64,000 nucleotides of DNA from Alphaproteobacteria bacterium (GTDB taxonomy: Bacteria; Pseudomonadota; Alphaproteobacteria; JANQMY01). The translations under genes were made by a program, and so were the position numbers. Shown here piece by piece: positions 10,431 to 52,701 of the stretch; within the stretch, counting starts at the first letter, position 1; each line of letters starts with the position of its first letter. The stretch is taken from the NCBI GenBank assembly GCA_028289425.1, contig JANQPL010000014.1:186170-250169 (forward strand), given 5' to 3'. Under the pieces are notes generated by a model that was not told the DNA's origin, ran no database searches, and saw nothing but the letters and a program-made list of their open reading frames with translations.

Positions 10431-13175
10431 CTATCGGCGCCCCAACATGGCCCGCAGCTCTTCGCCGGTGATTTCCTGACGCTCTAGCAAAATGTCGACC
10501 ATGCGCCGCAGGAGACGTTTGTTCTTGGAGATGCGGCGCACCGATTCCCGGTAAAGGGTTTCAAGGGTTTCGCGGACTTCCTGTTGCACTTCGTGCTTGG
10601 AATCGTCGAAATCGGACCAGACAAGCCCCCGCTTCCTAGAGAAACCATATTGCGTGAGCATCGCCGTCAGCAGCCGGGTTGCTTGTGCCAAATCGCTTGA
10701 CTGGCTGGGACCGCCGGCGCCGGACGAAACATTCTCGGCGCCGAAAATGACCTCTTCGGCCGCGCGGCCCCCCAGCAATAAGCGCAGATCTTCGAAGAGT
10801 TCATCTTTCGTCACCACGTGACGTTCGTCCGGCGCCGTAAAGACAAAGCCGAGCGTTCCATCCGCGCGCGGCGTTACACTTACAAACGCAATATTGGCGC
10901 CCTTGGTTGGCCCCGTGAGCTGTATGAGAGCATGGCCCGCCTCGTGAACCGCCGTGCGGCGCATATCGTCTTTAGACAGACGAACGGCGCCCGACTCGCC
11001 AATCGGGGATCCCATGATTTCTTGCACGAAATCGTCATGGGCGACGCGCACCCGCTGACCGGTTTGCGTGCGGCCCCGTGCACGGCGGGCAGCGCCACGC
11101 ACATAAAGCTCCACATCCGCGCCGGTCTGCCCGAAGGTCATGCGGGCAAGTTCTTGAAAATCCACGTCGCCGTGATCCACGCCCATCTGACGCTGCTGTT
11201 CCACATAGTATTCATAGATCTTGGCGAGCGCCTGAATGTTCGGGTAATTCACCTGAACCACACGGTCGAGACGACCCGCACGCCGCAGCGCCGGATCCAC
11301 CCCTTGCAGGCGGTTGGTGGCGGCCATAACAATGACGCCTTCCCGGTCTTGGAAGCCCTGAAGTTCTTCCAGCACCGCGTTCACCACGGCCGTATGGTAG
11401 AATTCGTTGTGACCGCCAAAGCCGCGCCGGCCAATCGAATCGAATTCATCGATAAAGATGATCGATGGGGCATAGCGCCGCGCCATGGCAAAAGAGCCGC
11501 GTATGGCTTGCACGTGCTCGCCCAGATGATTCGCCGATTGCCAGTCCGACGCCGATGCATGAATGAAGCGGATGCCCGCTTCCCGGGACATGGCCCGCGC
11601 CATCATGGTCTTACCCGTCCCCGGTGGGCCTACCAAAAGCATGCCGCGGTCCACCTGGCTCCACGGAATTGAGCCTGCCAGATAGGCTTTGATGTCGCCG
11701 ATAAACGCGTTGGCATGTTCCTTGGCCTCGCCAAGACCATGGATTTCATTAAGCGCCGGGCCCTTTGTTGCGCCCATGCGCGTAAGGCGCCCTTGCACGC
11801 GCTCGGACAGATCCTGTACCGCCGCAACGCCCCGCGCGCCAGCGTGGTAAACCTTTTCCAAGTCCAACGCAGATGCATACCGCGTCCAAAGATCACCATC
11901 GGGCCCGGGCACCGCTCCCGGTCCGAAAATTTCCGTGAACACACGATCCCGCACATGCCCCACCAGATCGGGCAATTCCAATTCCAAGTCCCGATTGAGA
12001 CGCAAGGGTGCCGGCAGCGACATGATGTTGTCCGTCACCACGAGCCCGATATCGCCCGCGGCCAGCAAGGCGCGAATGCGATTGTCGATTTCCTTGGCGG
12101 CGTCTTGTCCCCCACCTTCAAAAGACCGCCTGCTGAACAACACAACGGAGCCGCTGTCGCGATCCATCATGCCGCCATTCTGATACGAGCCGTAATCGCC
12201 ATACCGGCCTTCGGCCCGGTAGCGCAGACCCCCGACCTCAGCCATGAATTTGGCGATGTTGGGCCCCAACTCCCAATGCACGGTTTCAAGCAGAATCAAG
12301 GGCCGCTTGGACAGATAGATATCGCGGAAACCCCGCAGTGCTTCTTCCGGATGGCTGGGGGTGCCTTCCATAAATCGGACGATGGTCTCTTCCACCAGCC
12401 CTTCGCACAGCACGTCGGCGACCGATTTCATCTTCTTCGGCGCGACCGCCGGCTCGTTCAACTCCGCTTCGGCATCTTCAGCCGCCGTATCGCTTTCATC
12501 CTTATCCAGATCATCGTCGAACGCCGCCGGCGGCAAGTGCCCGTTCTCGGAAGGATAGAATGTGGGCTCTCCGGGCTGATGGTCGGAGCGGAAAGCAAGG
12601 CCCAAACTTTCAAGCCTCATCCCGCCTTCAAACAGGGTAATCGGCTCCCACCATTCATGGGCCGCCACCATGTCGACGATGGACGATTCAAGTTCTCTGA
12701 ACAGGAAGACGGGCATGACTTCAATCGACCGGTCGCGACGATCGAGATAGACAAGCGTGTGTTCCACAAACTTGTCGCGCAGGCGCTTCGGAACGCGCGC
12801 TTGATCGTCATACCAGGCTTTCGCGCCAAACGACGCAAGACGCCCCTGTACCATTGCCCGCTTACGCGAGGCGCGCGGTTTGCCTGACGCGGACGAAACG
12901 CGCGCGAACCGGCAATAGTGATTGGACAATGCGCCGTCGTCGCTATTGCAAACCAGATCGTATATGTCGGATACGGATAGTTGCAGCCGTGAACGGCCGG
13001 ACAGGATCCCGGCAAATGCCAGCCCGTCTTCCGAGGGAATGTCGGCACTTGCGTTCCTTAATATCCCCCCGATGTCGGCGTTACCGCCGCGCGGCAGCGT
13101 GACCGGCCTGCACCAGGATTCAACCACCACATTTCGATGATCGACCCGATAAAACAACGCATGCGTCGTCGACAT
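10431..13175 (-). CDS. Soluble FtsH-like AAA+ zinc metalloprotease with unusual N-terminal half
   Basis: 914 residues from ATG 13175 (GGTGGGGA ribosome site). Residues 1-400 are soluble, with an acidic linker near 215-245 (DDDLDKDESD), and match no domain I recognise. Then comes a AAA+ module: Walker A GPPGTGKT (about 516), Walker B IIFIDEFD (about 572), an FtsH-like second region of homology ATNRLQGVDPALRRAGRLD, and an M41 peptidase domain with HEAGH (about 744) and the third-ligand segment SSDLAQAT (Asp about 828). Classical FtsH is membrane-anchored with two TM helices; this one has no hydrophobic segment. It is therefore likely a cytosolic ATP-dependent protease, not the housekeeping FtsH. 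Monocistronic. Confidence 0.88.
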   Translation of the reverse strand: MSTTHALFYRVDHRNVVVESWCRPVTLPRGGNADIGGILRNASADIPSEDGLAFAGILSGRSRLQLSVSDIYDLVCNSDDGALSNHYCRFARVSSASGKPRASRKRAMVQGRLASFGAKAWYDDQARVPKRLRDKFVEHTLVYLDRRDRSIEVMPVFLFRELESSIVDMVAAHEWWEPITLFEGGMRLESLGLAFRSDHQPGEPTFYPSENGHLPPAAFDDDLDKDESDTAAEDAEAELNEPAVAPKKMKSVADVLCEGLVEETIVRFMEGTPSHPEEALRGFRDIYLSKRPLILLETVHWELGPNIAKFMAEVGGLRYRAEGRYGDYGSYQNGGMMDRDSGSVVLFSRRSFEGGGQDAAKEIDNRIRALLAAGDIGLVVTDNIMSLPAPLRLNRDLELELPDLVGHVRDRVFTEIFGPGAVPGPDGDLWTRYASALDLEKVYHAGARGVAAVQDLSERVQGRLTRMGATKGPALNEIHGLGEAKEHANAFIGDIKAYLAGSIPWSQVDRGMLLVGPPGTGKTMMARAMSREAGIRFIHASASDWQSANHLGEHVQAIRGSFAMARRYAPSIIFIDEFDSIGRRGFGGHNEFYHTAVVNAVLEELQGFQDREGVIVMAATNRLQGVDPALRRAGRLDRVVQVNYPNIQALAKIYEYYVEQQRQMGVDHGDVDFQELARMTFGQTGADVELYVRGAARRARGRTQTGQRVRVAHDDFVQEIMGSPIGESGAVRLSKDDMRRTAVHEAGHALIQLTGPTKGANIAFVSVTPRADGTLGFVFTAPDERHVVTKDELFEDLRLLLGGRAAEEVIFGAENVSSGAGGPSQSSDLAQATRLLTAMLTQYGFSRKRGLVWSDFDDSKHEVQQEVRETLETLYRESVRRISKNKRLLRRMVDILLERQEITGEELRAMLGRR

Positions 13176-13309
13176 AAAAATCCCCACCGGCCGGCCTTTG
13201 GGCGGCAAAACTCAAGACATTTTCTTAGTGTTTGAAGGGATTATGGCCTGTCCATAAGGGGGCCCGTCAAGCCCCGATTTTTGCGCCGCCAGATCCGGCA
13301 AAGCCCCTA

Positions 13310-13746: not shown

Positions 13747-15612
13747 ATGCTGCAGCAAACGGCGGAAGCCGTCCAATATCAAGAACGGGGCCGAGTAGAA
13801 ATTGACCTCGTCAATGACGCCAATCTGACAGAGTTTGGCAAAGCCACGTTGGCTGACCGCTACCTGTTGCCGGGTGAGTCCTATCAAGACCTCTTTGCCC
13901 GCGTCGCAAGCTATTACGGCGACAGCGACGCGCACGCACAGCGTCTCTATGACTATATGAGCCGCCTGTGGTTCATGCCGGCCACACCCGTATTGAGTAA
14001 TGGCGGCACCGATCGAGGGCTGCCGATTTCCTGTTTCTTGAATGAAGCGGACGACAGCCTGAACGGCATTGTGGGTCTGTGGAACGAGAATGTGTGGCTG
14101 GCGGCCCGCGGCGGCGGCATCGGCAGCTATTGGGGCAATCTGCGTTCCATCGGCGAGAAGGTCGGTGGCAACGGCAAGACGTCGGGCATTATCCCATTCA
14201 TCCGCGTGATGGACAGTTTGACACTGGCGATCAGCCAAGGCTCCCTGCGCCGGGGCAGTGCGGCGGTCTACCTGCCCATCGATCATCCGGAAATCGAAGA
14301 GTTCGTCGAAATCCGCCGGCCCACGGGCGGCGACCCGAACCGCAAGGCACTCAATCTGCATCACGGCGTGCTGATCAGTGATGCCTTCATGCGCGCGGTG
14401 GAAAATGACGAAGACTGGGCGCTGCTGAGCCCGAAAGACAAGAGTGTTCAGGCGACAGTGCCTGCGCGATCTTTGTGGATCCGACTATTGACCGCGCGGA
14501 TCGAAACCGGCGAGCCCTACATCGTGAATATCGATCACGTAAACAAGGCACTCCCGGAACATCAAAAACTTGCCGGCCTGCAGGTCAAAACATCCAACCT
14601 GTGCAGCGAGATTACCCTGCCCACCGGCATTGACCATTTAGGAGAGCAACGCACGGCGGTCTGCTGTCTTTCGTCTTTGAACCTGGAAAAATATGACGAG
14701 TGGGAAGAGGAACCGCAATTCATCGAAGACGTCATGCGCTTTCTCGACAATGTACTTCAGGACTTCATTGAAAAAGCGCCGGACAGCATGGCGCGGGCAA
14801 AATACTCGGCCATGCGGGAACGCAGTGTTGGCTTGGGCGTGATGGGATTTCACTCATTTTTGCAGTCGAAGATGATTCCCTTTGAATGTGCCCTGGCACA
14901 GTCCTGGAACAAGAACATCTTCAAGCACGTCAGCACCCAAGTGGCCGCCGCCTCTAGATCTTTGGCCGAAGAACGCGGCCCCTGCCCCGATGCCGCCGAT
15001 TACGGCATGATGGAACGGTTCTCAAATAAGACGGCGATCGCGCCGACGGCGTCCATTTCCATCATTTGCGGTGGCGCAAGCCCGGGAATCGAACCCATCG
15101 CCGCCAACAGCTACACCCACAAGACGCTGACCGGATCGTTTAATGTCCGCAACCGGTACCTGAAGAAACTGTTGGCGGAAAAAGGACGGGACAATGACGC
15201 CACGTGGAGTGAGATCACCATCAATGGCGGCTCGGTTCAGCACCTCGATTTCCTAACCGACGACGAAAAGGACGTGTTCAAAACGGCCTTCGAACTGGAC
15301 CAGCGCTGGGTGATCGAACACGCGGCGGACCGAGCGCCCATGATCGACCAAGCCCAATCGGTCAATGTGTTCTTGCCTGCCAATGTACACAAACGCGATT
15401 TGCACCAGATCCATTATCAAGCGTGGAAGAAGGGGGTGAAGTCGCTGTATTATTGCCGCTCTTTGTCGATCCAACGGGCCGAAAAAGCGGAAGCACCGGA
15501 GAAGACGGAAGCTGGCCTGAAACTGGTGCCGCTGGTAAACTTGGAAGACCTGCCGAAGGTTGCGTCCCAACCTGCCGCCACAAACTACGAAGAATGTCTT
15601 TCGTGCCAGTAG
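13747..15612 (+). CDS. nrdA: Class I ribonucleoside-diphosphate reductase, alpha subunit
   Basis: 621 residues from ATG 13747 (AAGGGTCGACAGG upstream). It reduces ribonucleotides to deoxyribonucleotides using a radical delivered by NrdB. The PATPVLSNGG and SCFLN motifs, NLCSEI (about residue 285) and the C-terminal redox pair CLSC (Cys617/Cys620) are visible. The N-terminus goes almost straight into the catalytic barrel; the roughly 90-residue ATP-cone that sets overall activity in E. coli NrdA is missing. nrdB follows 26 nt downstream, so the two form an operon behind a long leader. Confidence 0.93.
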   Translation: MLQQTAEAVQYQERGRVEIDLVNDANLTEFGKATLADRYLLPGESYQDLFARVASYYGDSDAHAQRLYDYMSRLWFMPATPVLSNGGTDRGLPISCFLNEADDSLNGIVGLWNENVWLAARGGGIGSYWGNLRSIGEKVGGNGKTSGIIPFIRVMDSLTLAISQGSLRRGSAAVYLPIDHPEIEEFVEIRRPTGGDPNRKALNLHHGVLISDAFMRAVENDEDWALLSPKDKSVQATVPARSLWIRLLTARIETGEPYIVNIDHVNKALPEHQKLAGLQVKTSNLCSEITLPTGIDHLGEQRTAVCCLSSLNLEKYDEWEEEPQFIEDVMRFLDNVLQDFIEKAPDSMARAKYSAMRERSVGLGVMGFHSFLQSKMIPFECALAQSWNKNIFKHVSTQVAAASRSLAEERGPCPDAADYGMMERFSNKTAIAPTASISIICGGASPGIEPIAANSYTHKTLTGSFNVRNRYLKKLLAEKGRDNDATWSEITINGGSVQHLDFLTDDEKDVFKTAFELDQRWVIEHAADRAPMIDQAQSVNVFLPANVHKRDLHQIHYQAWKKGVKSLYYCRSLSIQRAEKAEAPEKTEAGLKLVPLVNLEDLPKVASQPAATNYEECLSCQ

Positions 15613-15638
15613 GCACCTGACCCGATCGGATTAACACC

Positions 15639-16598
15639 ATGTCACTTCTGAAAGAGCGGCTTGTTTACAAGCCCTTTCAATATCCTTGGGCCTATGAAGC
15701 GTGGCTGACCCAACAGCGCATCCATTGGCTGCCGGAAGAAGTGCCGCTGGCCGACGATGTGAAGGATTGGCACCGTAATCTGACGGATGTGGAACGCAAC
15801 CTGCTCACGCAGATCTTCCGTTTTTTTGTACAAGCCGACGTGGAAGTGAACAACTGCTACATGAAGCACTACGCACAGGTGTTCAAACCCACCGAAGTGC
15901 AGATGATGCTGTCGGCGTTCTCCAACATTGAAACGGTGCACATTGCAGCGTACAGCCATTTGCTCGACACCATCGGCATGCCTGAAATCGAATACGAAGC
16001 CTTCCTCAAATATGCCGAGATGAAGGACAAGTACGACTACATGCAGCAATGGGGCGTCGACACCAAGGAAGACATCGCCAAGACCTTAGCGGTGTTCGGT
16101 GGCTTCACCGAAGGCCTGCAATTGTTTGCGAGCTTCGCAATTCTCATGAACTTCCCGCGCTTCGGCAAAATGCGCGGCATGGGACAGATCGTGACCTGGT
16201 CCGCCCGCGACGAGACCCTGCACACCCATTCATCCATACAATTGTTCCGCACTTTCATCGAAGAGAACCCGGGGCTATGGACGGAAGGACTCAAAAAAGA
16301 CATCACGCAAGCCTGCATGACTGTGGTCGATCACGAAGATGCGTTTATCGACTTGGCATTTGAAATGGGCGGCGTGGAGGGCCTGAGCGCTGCCGAGGTC
16401 AAAGATTATATCCGCTACATCGCCGACCGGCGGCTAGGTCAACTTGGCCTATCGCCAATTTACGCGATGAACGTCAATCCGCTGCCCTGGATGGACGAGA
16501 TGCTCAACGGCATCGAGCATACGAACTTCTTCGAAAACCGGGCGACCGAATATTCAAAAGCCTCTACCGAAGGCACCTGGGACGAAGCGTTCGATTGA
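15639..16598 (+). CDS. nrdB: Class I ribonucleotide reductase, beta (radical) subunit
   Basis: 319-residue ferritin-like diiron protein that houses the tyrosyl radical. The metal-ligand motif ETVH is followed four residues after its His by Tyr (HIAAYSHLL), so the radical Tyr is present, unlike in Tyr-less NrdB types. A second ligand set is in ARDETLHTHS. No N-terminal ATP-cone. The C-terminus (TEGTWDEAFD) is acidic with a Phe, like the tail that docks into NrdA. Second gene of the nrdAB operon; the enzyme needs O2 for cofactor assembly. Confidence 0.93.
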   Translation: MSLLKERLVYKPFQYPWAYEAWLTQQRIHWLPEEVPLADDVKDWHRNLTDVERNLLTQIFRFFVQADVEVNNCYMKHYAQVFKPTEVQMMLSAFSNIETVHIAAYSHLLDTIGMPEIEYEAFLKYAEMKDKYDYMQQWGVDTKEDIAKTLAVFGGFTEGLQLFASFAILMNFPRFGKMRGMGQIVTWSARDETLHTHSSIQLFRTFIEENPGLWTEGLKKDITQACMTVVDHEDAFIDLAFEMGGVEGLSAAEVKDYIRYIADRRLGQLGLSPIYAMNVNPLPWMDEMLNGIEHTNFFENRATEYSKASTEGTWDEAFD

Positions 16599-50409: not shown

Positions 50410-52701
50410 ATGACGGAACTGACAGGCCTGCCGCATCACATTTGGGACATGAAATACCGCCTCAAGAACGCGGAGGGCACGCCCGTTGACGCCACCCTTC
50501 AGGATAGTTGGCGGCGCGTGGCCAAGGCCCTGGCGCAGGCGGAAAAACCGTCAGCGCGCGTGTTTTGGGAAGACGGGTTTTACCGGGCCCTGGACGGCTT
50601 CCGCTTCCTGCCGGCAGGACGCATCTTGGCGGGCGCCGGCACCGACCGGGACGTCACCCTTTTCAACTGTTTCGTCATGGGCACCATCCCCGACGATATG
50701 GGCGGCATTTTCCAAAGCCTGAAGGAAGCCGCCCTGACCCTGCAGCAGGGGGGTGGCATCGGCTATGACTTTTCCACCCTGCGCCCGAAAGGCGCGCTGG
50801 TGCGCGGCGTCGGCGCCGATGCGTCCGGCCCCATCTCCTTCATGGATGTGTGGGATGCCATGTGCCGCACCATCATGTCGGCAGGCTCGCGCCGCGGCGC
50901 CATGATGGCCACGTTGCGCTGTGACCACCCGGACATAGAAGCCTTCATTACCGCGAAGCGCGATGCGGACCGTTTGCGCATGTTCAATCTGTCGGTGTTG
51001 GTGACCGACGAATTCGTGAATGCGGTGAAGGCGGACGATCCATGGCCCCTCACCTTCGGCGACAAGACCTACCGCACGGTTCCCGCGCGCGCCCTGTGGG
51101 ACAAGATCATGACGGCCACATATGACTATGCGGAGCCGGGCGTGATCTTCATTGACCGGATCAACCAAAAAAACAATCTCAATTACTGCGAGACGATTGC
51201 GGCGACTAATCCGTGCGGGGAGCAACCGCTGCCCCCCTATGGCGCCTGTCTGTTGGGGTCGATTAACTTGTCGCGGCTTATAAACGATCCGTTCGGCAAG
51301 AACGCGCGCCTGGACGACGATGCGTTGGCCGCCTTGGTTCCCGTGGCCGTGCGTATGATGGACAATGCCATCGACGTTTCCAAATTTCCCTTGGAAGAAC
51401 AAGCGCAAGAAGCGCAAGCCAAGCGCCGTATCGGATTGGGCGTCACAGGCCTTGCCGATGCGCTGATCATGTGCGGCGCGCGCTATGGCAGCCCACAATC
51501 GATCGCGCTGATCGAACGCTGGATGAAGGCCCTGCGCGACCGCGCCTACCGCGCGTCCGCCGAATTGGCAGCGGAAAAAGGCGCTTTCCGGCTTTACGAC
51601 AAGCAGGCCATCGCCAAATCTGACATGGTGAAAAGCCTGGATGCCGATCTGCAAGCATTGATCGCGAAAAACGGCCTGCGCAATGCGCTGCTCACCTCCA
51701 TTGCGCCCACCGGCACGATTTCTCTGTTGGCGGATAATACGTCGAGCGGCGTGGAACCTGTTTTTGATCTTGCCTACAAACGCAAAGTGCTTCAGCCCGA
51801 CGGCTCGTCCCGCGAAGACGATGTGGAAGACTTTGCGGTGAAGCTCTATCGCGCACAAACCCGCCGCAAGACGACGCTGCCGAAAAGTTTCGTAACGGCT
51901 CAAGACCTAAGCCCGCAAGACCATGTGGCCGTTCAAGCCGCGGTCCAAAAATATGTGGACAGCTCGATCTCCAAAACCATCAACGTGCCCGAAGAAATTT
52001 CGTTCGACGATTTCAAATCCGTCTACATGGACGCGTGGGACCATGGATTAAAAGGCTGCACCACTTATCGGCCCAATCCGGTGACGGGCGCCGTTTTGTC
52101 GACCACACCCGCACCGGCAAAGCCCGCCCCGGCGGCCACCGGTTTTGCCGAAAGCGATGTGGTCTACATGACCGAACCCCTCGACCGGCCGCCCGCATTG
52201 GAAGGCCACACTTACAAAGTGCGCTGGCCCGACAGTGACCATGCCATGTACATCACCCTCAACGATATTGAGAGCGACGGGCGAAGGCGGCCGTTCGAGA
52301 TTTTCATAAATTCCAAGAATATGGAGCATTACGCTTGGACCCTGGCGCTCACCCGCATGATTTCCGCTGTGTTCCGCCGCGGCGGCGATGTGAGCTTCGT
52401 GGTCGAGGAACTTAAAGCCGTTTTCGACCCACGGGGCGGGCAATGGATGAACGGGGAATATGTACCGTCACTGCTCGCGGCCATCGGCAATGTGATCGAA
52501 CAGCACATGGTCCGCATCGGCTTCCTCAAAGAAGGCGATGCGCCCCTTGACCTGCCGGAACAGAAACGGGCGGCTGTTTTGCTGCCGCCGGAAGGGGCGG
52601 CCGGGCGTTACCGCCGCTGCCCCAAATGTTCCAACCCAACCCTGATTCGCCAAGAAGGGTGCGATACCTGCGCCAATTGCGGCTATTCCAAATGCTCCTA
52701 A
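50410..52701 (+). CDS. nrdJ: Adenosylcobalamin-dependent class II ribonucleotide reductase
   Basis: 763 residues. Reduces ribonucleotides with a 5'-deoxyadenosyl radical from coenzyme B12, so it works with or without O2. LFNCFVMG, NPCGEQPLPPYGACLLGSINLSRL (active-site Cys near 267), IAPTGTISLLADNTSSGVEP and the C-terminal zinc-binding cysteine set (CPKCSN, CDTCANCGYSKCS) are typical. No N-terminal ATP-cone. Monocistronic behind a LexA-type box. A second, different reductase (nrdAB) is at 13.7-16.6 kb, and the B12 adenosyltransferase is at 32.3 kb. Confidence 0.95.
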   Translation: MTELTGLPHHIWDMKYRLKNAEGTPVDATLQDSWRRVAKALAQAEKPSARVFWEDGFYRALDGFRFLPAGRILAGAGTDRDVTLFNCFVMGTIPDDMGGIFQSLKEAALTLQQGGGIGYDFSTLRPKGALVRGVGADASGPISFMDVWDAMCRTIMSAGSRRGAMMATLRCDHPDIEAFITAKRDADRLRMFNLSVLVTDEFVNAVKADDPWPLTFGDKTYRTVPARALWDKIMTATYDYAEPGVIFIDRINQKNNLNYCETIAATNPCGEQPLPPYGACLLGSINLSRLINDPFGKNARLDDDALAALVPVAVRMMDNAIDVSKFPLEEQAQEAQAKRRIGLGVTGLADALIMCGARYGSPQSIALIERWMKALRDRAYRASAELAAEKGAFRLYDKQAIAKSDMVKSLDADLQALIAKNGLRNALLTSIAPTGTISLLADNTSSGVEPVFDLAYKRKVLQPDGSSREDDVEDFAVKLYRAQTRRKTTLPKSFVTAQDLSPQDHVAVQAAVQKYVDSSISKTINVPEEISFDDFKSVYMDAWDHGLKGCTTYRPNPVTGAVLSTTPAPAKPAPAATGFAESDVVYMTEPLDRPPALEGHTYKVRWPDSDHAMYITLNDIESDGRRRPFEIFINSKNMEHYAWTLALTRMISAVFRRGGDVSFVVEELKAVFDPRGGQWMNGEYVPSLLAAIGNVIEQHMVRIGFLKEGDAPLDLPEQKRAAVLLPPEGAAGRYRRCPKCSNPTLIRQEGCDTCANCGYSKCS

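Follow-up and report, generated by a model that had tools for sequence, protein, structure and literature searches.

An alphaproteobacterial M41 protease without a membrane anchor and with a predicted degenerate AAA+ module ahead of the active one

Introduction

The 64,000-nucleotide stretch of alphaproteobacterial DNA that was analysed here (the window) encodes a 914-residue protein in which complete AAA+ and M41 peptidase modules are preceded by an unusual N-terminal half. The order of its parts is an N-domain (residues 1-190), an acidic linker, a first AAA+ module (D1, residues 250-470), a second AAA+ module (D2, residues 471-725) and the M41 peptidase (residues 726-914). The protein is probably a soluble, two-tier, ATP-dependent zinc metalloprotease of the M41 family, in which a ring of D1 modules would take the place of the membrane anchor and the N-domain would select substrates. 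The anchorless group to which it is related is already present in databases under generic names, and the new elements here are the pore loop that departs from FVG, the N-domain and the assignment of D1. Among open-licence PMC papers, as far as titles and abstract openings go, no description of these three features was found, nor of an M41 protease that combines a degenerate AAA module with the lack of an anchor.

Results

The gene and its coding frame

The open reading frame lies on the minus strand, with an ATG at 13175, 914 codons and a stop that ends at 10431. This start is favoured over a TTG upstream at 13208 because the ATG stands at the same aligned column in four of the five full-length homologues; the fifth, from genome G091, entered the alignment with a GTG further upstream as its start. 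Comparison with the orthologue from the same genus gave a Ka/Ks of 0.059 overall, and of 0.09 for the N-domain (residues 1-192), 0.067 for D1, 0.025 for the AAA part and 0.037 for the M41 part, ratios that are rough because Ks is saturated near 1.5. Such values indicate purifying selection on every part of the gene, which is real and conserved and not an annotation artefact.

Table 1. Features of the anchorless protease gene and its divergent neighbour, with positions in the window
Feature	Position	Strand	Details
Anchorless AAA-M41 protease gene	10431..13175	-	914 aa, ATG start
N-domain, residues 1-190	12606..13175	-	model pLDDT 80.8, pTM 0.81; no recognised relative
Linker, residues 193-249, low confidence; acidic stretch at about 218-239	12429..12599	-	sequence and model
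Predicted degenerate AAA+ module (D1), residues 250-470, no Walker A	11766..12428	-	fold of model
Active AAA+ module (D2), residues 471-725	11001..11765	-	Pfam AAA and conserved motifs
Walker A GPPGTGKT, residues 516-523	11607..11630	-	motif, conserved
Pore-loop region, residues 545-554; invariant W545, HLG where FtsH has FVG	11514..11543	-	alignment
Peptidase M41 domain, residues 733-909	10449..10979	-	Pfam
HEAGH zinc site, residues 744-748	10932..10946	-	motif, conserved
D828	10692..10694	-	aligned with FtsH Asp
Short ribonucleotide reductase large subunit (NrdA), divergent neighbour	13747..15612	+	linked in 3/3 genomes having it

Absence of a membrane anchor

FtsH proteases are described as membrane-anchored in the available text of PMC9020784. 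An earlier note on this DNA had claimed that the protein carries no such anchor, and this was confirmed: no transmembrane segment was found in the 914 residues. Hydropathy there peaks at a Kyte-Doolittle mean of 1.43 over 19 residues, whereas the two N-terminal segments of the ordinary FtsH encoded by the same genome reach 2.43 and 2.29. The corresponding maxima in the five other full-length homologues lie between 1.00 and 1.18, and the protein would be cytosolic.

The genome of origin (G000; 5.4 Mb, 99.75% complete) holds two M41 genes, one for the anchorless protease and one, a 646-residue frame on contig C14, for an FtsH with two transmembrane segments. The search for an ordinary FtsH elsewhere, which the earlier note had proposed, thus showed that the anchorless protease is not the sole FtsH of its genome. 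An ordinary FtsH (frames of 641-677 residues) is likewise present in all seven genomes with the long protein, with two copies in G123 and G091.

The catalytic half and its pore loop

The catalytic half matched Pfam AAA at residues 512-643 (120.4 bits; cut-off 21.2) and Peptidase_M41 (PF01434) over the span listed in Table 1 (109.8 bits; cut-off 29.9), in agreement with the earlier reading that its AAA+ and M41 motifs are complete. The residues concerned are invariant in all six full-length family members, namely K522 and T523 of Walker A, D576 and E577 of Walker B, the sensor-1 residue N621, the SRH arginines R632 and R635, the HEAGH motif and D828. H744, E745, H748 and D828 align with the FtsH structure 2ce7, and the FtsH aspartate in the last of these positions is, we presume, the third zinc ligand. 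The NCBIfam equivalog model for FtsH scored 254.8 bits, below its cut-off of 600.

The pore loop departs from that of FtsH. An invariant Trp in the six members is followed by HLG, ALD or YIS in place of FVG, so that the position of the aromatic residue in the FtsH pore is not conserved and holds H, A or Y. Since the Phe of the FVG motif binds substrate in FtsH (PMC9020784, available text), the replacement suggests that substrate would be gripped differently. Judged from the alignment, translocation might be weak or of another kind, given that the pore aromatic is not conserved, and the enzyme may act more like a chaperone or be tightly gated.

Two different parts in the N-terminal half

The N-terminal half, which had been taken for a single unrecognised region, gave no match to PDB sequences or to Pfam, where nothing exceeded a cut-off over residues 1-470. 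A model of these residues built from seven sequences, of moderate confidence (pLDDT 70.8, pTM 0.45), contains two folded parts with a linker of low confidence between them, and the linker includes the acidic stretch that had been noted earlier from the sequence. The view of this half as unknown territory was upheld for residues 1-190, which are modelled as a folded domain that matched no family or fold in Pfam, the PDB or BFVD, and was overturned for residues 250-470, which adopt a predicted AAA+ fold. A known domain was thus found for half of the N-terminal half, by fold and by no Pfam model.

The N-domain was also modelled alone as residues 1-200, with the confidence values given in Table 1. 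Foldseek comparison of this model with the PDB returned no match at E<=0.001 among 312 at E<=10, the best VIA hit reached Z 4.2 over 53 residues with none of 996 chains at Z>=5, and no BFVD match was found at E<=0.001. On the strength of the model, the fold is possibly new. Two beta-beta-alpha-beta units hinted at an internal repeat, an idea that was dropped, since the comparison of profiles got no further than E 0.027, over 26 columns.

In the case of D1, Foldseek matched the model of residues 249-470 to 36 AAA+ chains of the PDB at E<=0.001, and VIA aligned it, in each case with an rmsd of 3.6, with RuvB (Z 10.1, 171 residues aligned), p97 (Z 9.6, 183 residues) and the AAA domain of FtsH, 1lv7 (Z 8.9, 183 residues). 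The GK[ST] signature of a Walker A P-loop is missing from D1 in all six family members examined, and a Walker-B-like DD occurs in five members and is SR in the window's protein. The assignment of D1 to the AAA+ proteins rests on the fold, because sequence profiles gave no link between D1 and D2 (hhalign, E 0.41). Residues 250-470, with their modelled AAA+ fold and missing Walker A, are accordingly read as a degenerate ATPase module that precedes the active D2.

A degenerate AAA ring as a candidate substitute for the anchor

That a soluble hexamerising part can stand in for the anchor of an M41 protease is illustrated by YME1L, in which, according to the available text of PMC5095350, the transmembrane span drives formation of the hexamer, a construct without N-domain and transmembrane segment is a monomer, and active hexamers form again once a hexameric coiled coil is attached. 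A dead AAA ring that substitutes for the anchor in the cytosol is the simplest reading of the present architecture. The soluble construct hexYME1L from that text resembles the window's protein in being a soluble M41 protease with a hexamerising part in place of the transmembrane segment, the part proposed here being D1. The two differ in that the platform of hexYME1L is an artificial coiled coil, whereas the platform proposed here is a natural, dead AAA module.

In the proposed mechanism, the protein would probably be a hexamer, D1 forming an inactive AAA ring in the role that the transmembrane segment plays in FtsH and YME1L. By holding the six subunits together, this ring would allow the D2 ATPase sites, which are completed by arginine fingers, to form. 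The N-domain, carried on the flexible acidic tether, would select or deliver substrates, and D2 would thread them through a pore with a non-FVG gripping loop into the M41 chamber, where they would be degraded. The substrate recognition of its own that the earlier note had suggested would then fall to the N-domain.

The arrangement can be set against two familiar machines. With FtsH (HflB) the protein shares the AAA plus M41 architecture and its catalytic residues, and it differs in having no transmembrane anchor, in the replacement of FVG and in the added D1 and N-domain. Tandem AAA machines such as p97/Cdc48 likewise place an N-domain before two AAA modules, and the D1 model aligns with D1 of p97; unlike them, the window's protein has a D1 without Walker A and carries a peptidase domain at its C-terminal end.

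A tentative proposal, to which we give slightly less than even odds, is that alphaproteobacteria possess, beside FtsH, a natural class of soluble M41 proteases with two tiers, in which a non-ATPase AAA ring replaces the anchor, the grip is non-FVG and, in this sub-family, a 190-residue domain of possibly new fold acts as a dedicated substrate receptor. The findings suggest that an enzyme family regarded as membrane-bound has soluble members which have escaped notice. If the proposal holds, then whether an inactive AAA ring can replace the membrane anchor in M41 assembly becomes directly testable, as does the dispensability of the FVG grip, and the database labels "FtsH" and "AAA family ATPase" would include another enzyme, possibly one with a separate function.

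Anchorless relatives on plasmids and islands

Anchorless M41 proteins outside the family came to light in genomes G175, G270 and G325, where they were found by reading outliers, and tblastn added others on plasmids, annotated "AAA family ATPase", the group spanning 500-890 residues. Six plasmid proteins, a non-random choice made by annotation among the top matches, were read, and five of them are anchorless. The plasmid and island group includes proteins from Azospirillum oryzae (WP_174757081), Bosea (WP_248313574), Bradyrhizobium barranii (WP_166107100), Paracoccus alcaliphilus (WP_090617938) and Rhodovastum (WP_150041123). Like the window's protein, these have no transmembrane segment, and the module in front of their AAA-M41 part lacks Walker A; one of seven anchorless relatives has a GKT in its N-terminal module, outside the P-loop pattern. 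Most also have a Trp-containing loop resembling W-Q-x-x-G-H-L-G where FtsH has FVG. They differ from the window's protein in that they lack the 190-residue N-domain and reside on mobile replicons. Identity is 29-34% in the three relatives compared, two from G175 and one from G325.

An unrooted tree of 28 rows (14 FtsH, seven family members and seven anchorless relatives, several of the rows long) recovered the family with support of 94/96. In the comparison with FtsH that had been suggested earlier, the branch that sets the family and its anchorless relatives apart has support of 100/100. Four loci missed by the motif filter (L004, L057, L078 and L079) were left out of the tree; read separately, L079 is anchorless with a deviating loop, and L078, from Methylibium, has both an anchor and an FFG loop.

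The tree bears on the reading that the protein is an ordinary FtsH paralogue which lost its anchor, gained an unrelated N-terminal extension and serves in general soluble quality control with no special recognition. The M41 and AAA catalytic residues, being those of FtsH, are what such a paralogue would have, but it would not be expected to fall across the branch from all 14 FtsH rows, to differ in the pore loop, or to keep an N-domain that is present in all seven family rows and was found nowhere else in the searches of genomes and plasmids. Nor does it fit the AAA-M41 profile A3, which scored the family at 803-884 bits and the next best protein among 384 genomes at 289.5. An origin of this kind is considered unlikely, and the soluble two-tier protease is retained as the preferred reading.

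Profiles also tie the family to the plasmid and island proteins. Profile A12, built from these relatives alone, found the family members again with scores of 389-409 bits. Its matches at E<=1e-85 lie in only 10 of 289 genomes, which are the seven family genomes together with G175, G270 and G265. Comparison of the family D1 with the N-terminal module of the plasmid and island proteins gave an hhalign E of 2e-4 over 168 columns, at a probability of only 47%, and two other comparisons, one of them that of D1 with D2 given above, gave E 0.41 and 0.54. As far as profiles can tell, the two modules are likely homologous.

That plasmids and islands carry the nearest relatives, and that the AAA part resembles the defence ATPase IetA (PADLOC, E 2e-22), are points that accord with descent from plasmid or island AAA-M41 genes and a role in element maintenance or anti-phage defence. 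Yet the IetA match is confined to the AAA part, the NCBIfam model IteA scored 72.3 bits against a cut-off of 510, and the N-domain has no match in plasmids. GC content along the window does not shift at the gene, and its neighbours there are ordinary metabolic genes. A mobile-element or defence factor is therefore regarded as very improbable, and identification as a defence protein or toxin was rejected, the PADLOC and NCBIfam similarity being at the AAA level only. Phages yielded matches in 47 of 50,697 records, none over 80% of the query.

Several loci were noted in passing. L073 (5890-8019) and L075 (5915-8044), from G175 and G270, encode identical 709-residue anchorless M41 proteins a few hundred bases from a gene with a serine recombinase-like N-terminus, a setting that was read as a mobile island. 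In the viral collection, L103 (5001-5564) and L104 (5001-6523) hold AAA stretches whose pore loop, Trp...LGD, is like that of the anchorless group; no HExxH occurs in the same frame, and they were not used. L004 (3511-7335), from Tractidigestivibacter scatoligenes, is one frame of 1274 codons in which a part resembling RNase H, an AAA part resembling Clp and an AAA-M41 end resembling FtsH were distinguished by eye.

Distribution among genomes

Residues 1-467, used as query against 385 alphaproteobacterial genomes, found the architecture of about 910-930 residues in seven, the genome of origin included (G000, G123, G003, G237, G139, G137 and G091). G123 belongs to the same genus as G000, and its gene copy is split over two contigs. 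An eighth match, in G369 (E 1.7e-4, 82 residues in a 149-residue frame), was dropped as a likely chance hit. The long protein occurs in both genomes of the order of G000, all three of the family of G003, the one genome of the order of G137 and one of five of the order of G091. Conservation spans four alphaproteobacterial families; in a wider draw from the phylum it was found only in the genome of origin (1 of 299). The N-domain alone, as query against the 384 genomes drawn around G137, a draw whose matches do not include the genome of origin, was found in six, every time within the long protein, and plasmid records contained none.

Neighbourhood of the gene

In G000 and G123 the protease gene and a short class I ribonucleotide reductase pair are divergently oriented, and in G091 this pair is found about 2.6 kb past the 3' end of the protease gene. 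The short NrdA is present in three of the seven protease genomes, namely these, and in all three it is adjacent to the protease gene or within about 4 kb of it. The pair (short NrdA, frames of 638-671 residues, and NrdB) was observed near the protease at 13747-16598 of the window and at 2485-5692 of L017.

This linkage would fit a dedicated, regulated protease with a substrate connected to the neighbouring reductase, or to the replication state that the reductase serves, and with the N-domain as receptor. It is a hint, not evidence of function, as the sharing of one genus by G000 and G123 leaves only two independent cases; moreover, gene order and orientation differ in G091, and four of the seven genomes have the protease without a short NrdA. 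Of the explanations considered, a tie to ribonucleotide reductase is considered the least probable.

Two further observations concern gene neighbours. In two genomes of family f4, a conserved lipoprotein-like frame precedes the protease (L018, 237-1097, where it has no Pfam match; L019, 6831-7682). The window itself contains, at about 50665-52068 (C18 of G000, 236834-238237), a further ribonucleotide reductase large subunit in a 782-residue frame, and the genome of origin has three such large subunits, counting one on contig C5.
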